35,723 nucleotides of DNA from Sulfurospirillum sp. SCADC (GTDB lineage: Bacteria > Campylobacterota > Campylobacteria > Campylobacterales > Sulfurospirillaceae). The translations under genes and the position numbers were made by a program. A model generated the notes under the pieces. That model did no database searches. It was given only the letters and a program-made list of their open reading frames with translations, and was not told the DNA's origin. The stretch's first letter is position 1; each line of letters starts with the position of its first letter. Below are positions 8,756-33,642 of this stretch, in pieces. The stretch lies in contig NZ_JQGK01000022.1 in assembly GCF_000743525.1 (NCBI RefSeq), forward strand, positions 1 to 35,723, in the 5' to 3' direction.

Positions 8756-8806
8756 AGACTTTTTTAATAACCCAATAGAGTTGGTATTAAGTTATCAAAA
8801 AAGTCT
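8756..8806. terminator. Long inverted repeat between flgR and asd
   Basis: The 16-base arms 8756-8771 and 8791-8806 are complementary with one mismatch, separated by 19 bases that themselves contain CCAA/TTGG. Each arm holds a six-base T or A run. Placed after the flgR stop (8822) and before the asd start (8731), it is probably a terminator for flgR and may isolate the asd operon from the gyrA-flgR operon. Confidence 0.6.
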
Positions 8807-31683: not shown

Positions 31684-32169
31684 TTACGCTTTTGCTGCTT
31701 GTTGTTGTGCCGCTTGTGCTTTGCGAAGTGCGTCAAGCTCGCCTAGCATTTGCATCATCGAGATCATCGCAAGGTGGTAACCAAACGGTCCAAAACCACT
31801 GATTTGACCGGTGCAAACCGCTGCGGTCATGCTTTTTTGACGAAACTCTTCACGTCGGTAGATGTTACTGATATGCACTTCAATCGCTGGTAAAGCAACC
31901 GCGCTAATCGCATCACGAATCGCAATTGAGGTATGTGTATATGCCGCTGGATTGATGATGATACCATCGGCATCGCCAAGACATTCTTGGATACGATCCA
32001 CAATTTCACCTTCTAAATTGGATTGAAAAAATTCGATTTCAAAACCATTTTGTTTTGCGACCGTCTCCATTTGAGAGTGAATCTCTTCAAGTTTCATGCC
32101 ACCGTAGATGGTTTGCTCTCTGTGACCGAGCATATTAAGATTTGGACCTTGAATCACAACAATTTTCAT
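31684..32169 (-). CDS. aroQ: Type II 3-dehydroquinate dehydratase
   Basis: Dehydrates 3-dehydroquinate to 3-dehydroshikimate in the shikimate pathway. 161 residues, forming a dodecamer in relatives. Hallmarks are [20 protein letters not shown] (with the catalytic Tyr region), [18 protein letters not shown] and [17 protein letters not shown]. The C-terminus is alanine/glutamine-rich ([13 protein letters not shown]). It is the first gene of a 12.8-kb co-oriented run, with AAAGG upstream of its ATG and a TATAAT -10 at 32204-32199. Confidence 0.98.
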
Positions 32170-32198
32170 GAGTTACCTTTTGTTTAAAATTTACTCTT

Positions 32199-32204
32199 AT
32201 TATA
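32199..32204 (-). promoter_or_regulatory. -10 box of the aroQ-flagellar run
   Basis: The minus strand has TATAAT here, about 30 bases upstream of the aroQ ATG. The region 17 bases further upstream falls in the terminal repeat of the small element at 32210-32374, where GGGTTA is the best -35. The element may therefore have reshaped this promoter. Confidence 0.5.
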
Positions 32205-32209
32205 TCAAT

Positions 32210-32374
32210 AGACTTCTTGCATAACCCTTGAAAAGATTCAAGAGTTTGTTCAAAGTGCGTCAATTTTTAAAACTCAAAATTGAGTCATAGCCGTAGCTAT
32301 GGCGATGTTTTTAGTTTTAAAAAGTGGTGTGCTATGGACGATACTCTTTTTTCAATGGGTTATGCAAGAAGTCT
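32210..32374. mobile_element. MITE-like 165-bp non-coding element
   Basis: Perfect 18-bp terminal inverted repeats (32210-32227 and 32357-32374, AGACTTCTTGCATAACCC at the left) enclose AT-rich DNA that is itself partly palindromic. TTGAAAA continues the left repeat and recurs, inverted, next to the right one. TTTTTAAAACT recurs near both sides, and the centre CATAGC-CGTA-GCTATG (32286-32301) is a perfect hairpin. There is no open frame. The ends recall IS5-type termini, but no target duplication is certain. It fills the gap between aroQ and the divergent amidohydrolase gene. Confidence 0.65.
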
Positions 32375-32390
32375 CAAGCTTAGTTTAGGA

Positions 32391-32396
32391 TACAAT
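32391..32396 (+). promoter_or_regulatory. Candidate -10 box of the amidohydrolase-sppA operon
   Basis: TACAAT at 32391-32396 lies 20 bases upstream of the GTG start at 32416 and just outside the right end of the MITE-like element. No clear -35 is seen, as is common in Campylobacterota. Confidence 0.45.
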
Positions 32397-32415
32397 TACG
32401 CCAAAAAGGATCGAT

Positions 32416-33642
32416 GTGAAACTGTTAATTGCAGACTTTGTAGTACCCTGCAACGCCTCTTTTGAGATCATAGAAAAAGGTGCTGTTGCTTTTGATGAAA
32501 CCATCATTGATGTAGGACAGAGCGAAGATTTAAAACAAAAATATCCTCATGCAGAATTGATTGAAACACCTCCAAACAGTGTTATTTTGCCTGGCCTTAT
32601 CAACAGCCATGTTCACCTCGAATTTAGTGCTAACCAAAGCATGCTTCGCTATGGTGATTTTATCCCATGGCTTCGCTCTGTCATTAAGCATAGAGAAGAA
32701 CTGAGTGCTCTTGCGACAACGGAACTCATTACATGTAAACTTCACGAGATGCTTAAAAGCGGTACCACCACCTTGGGTGCCATCAGCAGTTTTGGCGCTG
32801 ACTTGGAGGCGTGCTCTCAAACCCCTCAACGTGTGGTTTATTTCAATGAAGTCTTAGGCTCCGTTCCAATTGCCGTGGATGCGATGTATGGGGATTTTAG
32901 AGGACGTCTTGAAGCCTCCAAAACGTTTACATGTAAACGTTTTATTCCTGCAGTTTCGGTGCATTCACCTTACTCAACGCATCCGATTTTGGCTAAAAAA
33001 GCGCTTCAAATTGCCAAAGAAGAGGGGTGTGTGGTCTCCACGCATTTTATGGAAAGCCCTGCGGAGCGTGCGTGGATCGATGAAGGAAAGGGCGATTTTG
33101 AAACGTTTTTTAGTGCGTTTAATCCTCATGCAAAACCGATGTGTTCAAGCGTAGAGTTCCTTGAGCTTTTTGAACAAAACAAAACGCTATTCACCCACGC
33201 GGTACAAGCAACGCAAAACGAGCTAGAGATTATTGCTGAGCAAAAAGCGACTTTGACGCATTGTCCTGTTTCCAACCGACTTTTAGGCGTAGGCAAACTC
33301 GACCTTGAAGCCGTGCAAAAAGAGAACATCAACCAAACATTAGGAACCGATGGACTGAGCTCCAACACCTCGCTCAGCCTTTGGGATGAAATGCGCTCTG
33401 CCTTAATGATGCACGCTGAATGTGAACTTTCAAGCCTCGCTAAAACACTTCTGCAAAGCGTTACATGTAACGCTGCCAAAGCGTTGCAACTGCCATGTGG
33501 CGTGCTTGAAAAAGAGCGTTACAGTGACCTTATCGTGGCAACCTTGCCCCAAGCGTGTGAAAAAGAGGATGTGGCACTACAGCTCATCTTGCACACACAC
33601 CAAACCCATTTAACTTTTATTGACGGAGAACAACCATGCTAG
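32416..33642 (+). CDS. Metal-dependent amidohydrolase, aminofutalosine deaminase family
   Basis: A 408-residue amidohydrolase of the MqnX/aminofutalosine deaminase-like group, which acts in the futalosine route to menaquinone in some bacteria. Metal ligands are seen in order: INSHVHLEF (HxH), STHFMES (His), LTHCPVSNRLLG (His) and LGTDGLSSNTSLSLWDEM (Asp). Since many Campylobacterota hydrolyse aminofutalosine directly by MTAN, the true substrate may differ. The start is GTG at 32416 with AAAAAGGA 5 bases upstream; the ATG at 32414 is out of frame. It overlaps sppA by 7 bases. Three TACATGTA palindromes lie inside, two of them embedded in longer palindromes. Confidence 0.85.
   Translation: MKLLIADFVVPCNASFEIIEKGAVAFDETIIDVGQSEDLKQKYPHAELIETPPNSVILPGLINSHVHLEFSANQSMLRYGDFIPWLRSVIKHREELSALATTELITCKLHEMLKSGTTTLGAISSFGADLEACSQTPQRVVYFNEVLGSVPIAVDAMYGDFRGRLEASKTFTCKRFIPAVSVHSPYSTHPILAKKALQIAKEEGCVVSTHFMESPAERAWIDEGKGDFETFFSAFNPHAKPMCSSVEFLELFEQNKTLFTHAVQATQNELEIIAEQKATLTHCPVSNRLLGVGKLDLEAVQKENINQTLGTDGLSSNTSLSLWDEMRSALMMHAECELSSLAKTLLQSVTCNAAKALQLPCGVLEKERYSDLIVATLPQACEKEDVALQLILHTHQTHLTFIDGEQPC

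Follow-up and report, generated by a model that had tools for sequence, protein, structure and literature searches.

A probable IS5-type miniature transposon between aroQ and an amidohydrolase operon of Sulfurospirillum has a structured core that recurs in small elements of Campylobacterales

The window, i.e. the whole analysed stretch of 35,723 nt from Sulfurospirillum sp. SCADC, harbours a 165 bp element inserted between aroQ and an amidohydrolase gene (type A, positions 32210-32374, plus strand). A preliminary description had proposed a MITE-like element with perfect 18-bp ends and a partly palindromic interior devoid of genes, and the sequence bears this out. The left terminal inverted repeat AGACTTCTTGCATAACCC (32210-32227, plus strand) recurs as an identical 18-mer in inverted orientation at the right end (32357-32374, minus strand). 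The terminal arms extend to 25 nt with 88% complementarity, the inner arms (32248-32291 and 32296-32339) are 70% complementary around 4 nt, and no listed ORF of at least 80 aa lies inside. The interior contains a 68-nt hairpin core (32260-32327, plus strand) matched by our covariance model R1, the window copy itself being among the 27 rows used to build the model. Its apex hairpin GAGTCATAGCCGTAGCTATGGCGA (32282-32305, plus strand) is the portion common to other element types. The predicted RNA fold of the 165 bp element amounts to -81.4 kcal/mol for the plus strand (z -13.1) and -61 kcal/mol for the minus strand (z -10.3).

Allowing up to 3 mismatches, the 18-bp end occurs 3 times in the window (0.03 expected). 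In the whole genome 17 forward and 15 reverse occurrences were counted, compared to 0 and 0 for the control. The genome contains 13 near-full copies of the element including that of the window, to which the remaining 12 show 85-93% identity, and element matches are present in 16 of 24 Sulfurospirillum genomes. The gap between aroQ and the amidohydrolase gene lacks the element in all relatives with a readable site (20/20); three relatives stand outside this count, two without an aroQ match and one with a partial match. In the empty site of G007 the two -10 boxes bordering the gap are separated by 18 bp versus 186 bp here. The excess of 168 bp corresponds to 165 + 3 bp, that is, the element length plus a 3 bp duplication. 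Hence the genome search for the ends and the comparison with an empty site, both suggested in the preliminary description, turned out as expected for a MITE: further copies exist, a parent IS is present in G006 (see below) and the readable relatives are empty.

The left 3-bp target copy AAT is located at 32207-32209, while the right flank reads CAA, so that the duplication around the window copy is imperfect; it has either decayed or was never exact. For the type A family the duplication is 3 bp long and mostly AAT or ATT. It is exact in 26 of 60 copies as compared to 12.0 after shuffling, with a maximum of 21 among 2000 shuffles. This 60-copy set leaves out L074 (no hit), four loci shorter than 155 bp, two of which are empty extractions, and copies sharing sequence and left flank. 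In L013 and its orthologues, the duplicated base T followed by the element's AG forms TAG at each end, and this TAG seems to supply the stop codon of the neighbouring gene.

G006 carries four copies of a 907-bp IS with ends AGACTTCTTTCATAACCC and an ANT 3-bp duplication in 4/4 cases. Both of its ends differ from the left repeat of the window element by one base. Two overlapping frames comprise HTH_Tnp_4 plus DDE_Tnp_4/DDE_Tnp_1, Pfam domains scoring over cut-off, and the two halves reach 54.8 and 107.5 bits with NF033581 (IS5 family), each under the cut-off of 140. We infer a frameshifted transposase. Going by the ANT duplication, the IS presumably belongs to an ISL2-like subgroup. Parent IS and MITE share 18-20 bp at each end and nothing further, so that descent of the MITE from the 907-bp IS is documented for the ends only; as judged from the compared sequences, the interior is not derived from the known parent IS. 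Copies of a cousin IS, with ends TAGACATCTTGCAAAACTCA, abound in G004, G005 and G007, and partial matches to the parent IS occur in G013 and G020. Neither parent nor cousin IS was detected at DNA level in the window's genome, which yielded no DDE_Tnp_4 hit and a single DDE_Tnp_1 hit at a contig end, whose available flank shows no such ends. An assembly gap or loss may possibly account for the absence of the parent IS here.

The element is short and gene-free, has inverted ends, many copies, an empty site, a family-level duplication and, in G006, an autonomous partner with matching ends. Based on the repeated, dispersed copies, the empty orthologous sites and an IS of a sister species that agrees in type of ends and duplication, the MITE assignment holds, and we regard the element as very probably a non-autonomous miniature transposon of IS5 type, an account that includes the shared core described below. 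It resembles the IS of G006 in ends and 3-bp ANT duplication but differs by lacking a gene and any shared interior. According to the part of a review on IS-derived prokaryotic MITEs that we consulted (PMC10969869), such elements are likewise short, AT-rich and intergenic, with inverted ends, target duplication, stem-loop potential and a transposase provided in trans by an IS. The conservation of the interior across differing ends and duplication lengths, as seen here, goes beyond the description in that part of the review.

Shorter forms exist as well. A 51-bp element with related inverted ends (8756-8806, plus strand), probably a deletion derivative, lies between two minus-strand genes and has no intact 3-bp duplication. 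Deletion derivatives of type A of 80-95 bp occur, as do 32-bp hairpins with little beyond the ends, e.g. L125, L129 and L134 with intact duplications. The short hairpins L050, L055, L056 and L059 of this genome contain AGACTTCTTGCAAAACTC and resemble the ends of the cousin IS; despite these hairpins, the cousin IS of G004, G005 and G007 was not found in this genome. REP/BIME-type palindromes are repeated intergenic palindromes too, and the 32-bp derivatives look similar to them, yet the elements described here differ in having ends of transposon type, duplications and a parent IS of the DDE type.

The insertion is framed by the -10 box of aroQ (ATTATA, 32199-32204, TATAAT on the minus strand) and that of the amidohydrolase operon (TACAAT, 32391-32396, plus strand), positioned as originally described and 186 bp apart. 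Both are present in 20/20 empty sites and are hence ancestral. It had also been claimed that the terminal repeats occupy the -35 regions. This is correct with respect to position, since with a 17-bp spacer both nominal -35 positions lie within the element, but a -35-like sequence is missing: the hexamers GGGTTA and GAAGTC match TTGACA at 2/6 and 0/6 positions. A promoter scan of 32100-32480 returned one site (1.1 expected) and neither of the two -10 boxes. The element could act as a regulator or insulator by splitting two interlocked divergent promoters and bringing in new upstream sequence. Indeed, each -10 box of the empty sites is located near the other's -35 place and the insertion moves the boxes apart, and of the 12 copies classed for this genome, 7 sit between divergent genes. 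We nevertheless judge this very unlikely. Besides the missing -35-like hexamers, the apparent preference for divergent promoters, striking in this genome, disappears genus-wide: among 46 unique sites 25 are tandem, 17 divergent, 2 convergent and 2 unclassed, and 400 kb of this genome contain 15627 tandem, 9435 divergent and 3441 convergent intergenic bases, so that there is no excess of divergent sites and the pattern is explained by intergenic space. Moreover, of 21 species read at this site, one carries the element, which the divergent gene pair hence does not need. The proposed coordination or rewiring of the two operons is not supported in view of the ancestral -10 boxes, the nature of the ends and the lacking excess of divergent sites, and the term flagellar/sugar run was itself loose, the leftward order being aroQ, M24 peptidase, HPPK and SRP54-type GTPase. 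At the level of sequence, a regulatory role at the aroQ-amidohydrolase site is not supported. The event at this site is an ordinary MITE insertion.

The core extends well outside type A. Two further families of the order contain full-length relatives with 73-80% identity (G198, G030). Inside elements with different ends, the apex pattern was detected in 29 of 398 genomes of the order and 8 of 87 genera, with 0 control hits; a search of viral contigs gave 0 hits. R1 (68 positions, from 27 cores) matches in 31 of 397 genomes of the phylum and 10 of 68 genera. The 27 cores, although of different types, have 18 invariant columns in common. The preliminary description had named two findings that would speak against its reading, the lack of any other copy and an interior conserved as a structured RNA. 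The former is false, the latter partly true as the interior is both conserved and structured.

Most loci examined outside type A contain larger elements. Of 47 loci chosen, 43 yielded elements of 264-269 bp, where the extraction accepted end pairs roughly 237-290 bp apart and 12 of the 43 are G167 copies; the remaining four loci (L367-L370) yielded no element. Listing end pairs without a spacing limit gives pairs spanning 50-161 bp too, and L299 is an exception with 232 bp. Three classes of ends can be distinguished. Class I ends are AGACTTCTT-like with a 3-bp duplication, exact in 3 of 9 longer elements versus 0.9 after shuffling, next to the 26 of 60 counted in type A. Class II ends (ACTGACCTT) are compatible with a TA duplication that does not exceed shuffles (4/7 vs 3.4). 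Class III ends are GGGCACCTCT-like with a 4-bp duplication in 16 of 27 cases versus 2.3 shuffled, 12 of the 27 being G167 copies that represent 9 distinct sequences. The majority of end pairs in G167 cover 265-266 bp, and a pair of IS length is absent among the matches listed; many near-identical class III elements of 265-266 bp are found on its contig 1 (L355-L366). Class III end pairs spanning 158 bp and 50-88 bp were seen in G133 (contigs 13 and 22) and G216 (contig 1), which parallels the short forms of class I. At L323 (G000 contig 11, 51700-52600) element ends form a perfect inverted repeat with nothing but NN between them; a longer, two-domain element was probably lost there in an assembly gap. 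The structured core is present in small Campylobacterales elements whose ends and duplications represent a minimum of two clearly distinct types, and probably three.

The larger elements were aligned after removal of 14 near-duplicate or close rows (29 left) and of the poorly aligned L351. In the resulting 28 rows the ends form an outer stem, followed by hairpin P2, which bears the apex, a small hairpin (CCC/GGG) and hairpin P4. Pairing is found in 86.8% of cells versus 64.1 shuffled and at most 48.8 slid. As many as 88 of 105 pairs change on both sides (69.4 shuffled), with 693 double-change cells versus 240.1 shuffled; these covariation figures are biased in favour of the structure, which was derived from the same 28 rows. 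Under a scheme scoring both kinds of mismatch alike, the P2 arms show 109 G.T to 21 A.C oppositions and the P4 arms 7 to 42. The signs of this bias are the same in each of the three end classes, and the outer stem is balanced, with 23 to 25. When P4 is read from the opposite strand, its resemblance to P2 exceeds all 100 shuffles in 16 of 28 rows. Given the opposite bias and this likeness, the elements appear to consist of two strand-oriented hairpins in mutually inverted arrangement, of which the window form has one. A long-range helix between the domains (TAACGAAG/CTTCGTTA, AGGCA/TGCCT) was considered as well; it occurs in class II and some of class I, is not general, and more plausibly follows from the relation of the two domains, the second representing the first in inverted form.

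Within type A, 96.9% of hairpin cells are paired across the 60 copies, and 115 cells are changed on both sides versus 31.1 in shuffles. Such covariation could be a mutational footprint, polymerase template switching matching the arms of a palindrome with nothing being selected. Several observations point in this direction. At one site common to six species, L122 (G007) carries the core in inverted orientation relative to L013, L085, L103, L111 and L124; inverted loops are found at two further sites (L079 versus L077, and L080 and L082 versus L068). Arm homogenisation and spacer inversion are described as products of template switching (PMC8604942, PMC8794818). At seven two-copy sites, the similarity of the element exceeds that of both 100-bp flanks in six cases and falls between them in one; the L068 site shows an element less alike than its flanks, the L013 site is mixed. 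The single changes of type A are weakly strand-biased (33 G.U and 24 A.C distinct). However, template switching leaves unexplained the invariant unpaired bases across end classes, the opposite-sign arm bias of the two domains and the recurrent length of 264-269 bp. It can account for the arm matching and the core inversion, not for the conserved unpaired bases, and as an explanation of the entire covariation we hold it to be quite conceivable, though we lean slightly against it.

Alternatively, the interior may be a functional RNA: transcripts running into the element would adopt the hairpin fold and serve as a 3' end, stabiliser or small RNA. The opposite P2/P4 bias with an even outer stem would be in line with this, implying that on each strand the first hairpin is the RNA-competent one; likewise, the type A consensus has 7 G.T to 1 A.C oppositions, and the 18 invariant columns span cores of differing types. 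The apex oppositions, however, lean the other way (15 G.T to 30 A.C), and in full two-domain elements neither strand folds markedly better than the other. Adaptation to the strand transcribed by the host was discarded, as type A copies in tandem gene pairs are distributed 17 versus 19 without strand preference and their private changes do not track the transcribed strand. The window copy lies between outward-pointing promoters and by the present reading on neither transcript. A stable hairpin with covarying stems is shared with the structured RNA families of Rfam 15, but none matched at gathering score, the only hits being sub-threshold miRNA and snoRNA hits. We therefore consider a functional RNA rather unlikely.

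Returning to the miniature transposon, we propose that a transposase acting on the 18-bp ends, probably of IS5 type, would have inserted the element, duplicating 3 bp (ANT), into the gap where the -10 boxes of aroQ and of the amidohydrolase operon stand back to back, after this species split from the sampled relatives. Its interior would be the single-hairpin form of a structured core spread across Campylobacterales. The complementarity of the arms may be kept in part by template switching at the DNA level, as suggested by the inverted core at one orthologous site and the inverted loops at two others, while the conservation of the apex and of the unpaired bases beside it hints at a degree of selection acting on the folded core.

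MITEs are usually regarded as IS remnants with an interior of no importance. Here the core itself may matter, being common to several kinds of small mobile elements with different ends. A bolder and tentative reading, towards which we remain on the sceptical side, is that the folded core constitutes an independent module rather than passive filler: a conserved two-hairpin structure, with one hairpin in the window form, carried over much of Campylobacterales by different IS5-like transposases via end exchange and acting as folded RNA or single-stranded DNA. The openly licensed literature gave no recognised description of the element, and six end or core strings were absent there; the core apparently belongs to an undescribed, order-wide set of structured small elements. 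The findings also serve as a warning that palindrome repair can mimic a functional RNA. The recurrence of related interiors with different ends, duplication lengths and covarying stems makes two questions directly testable, namely selection on the non-coding interior of a transposon and the change of transposases by such an interior.
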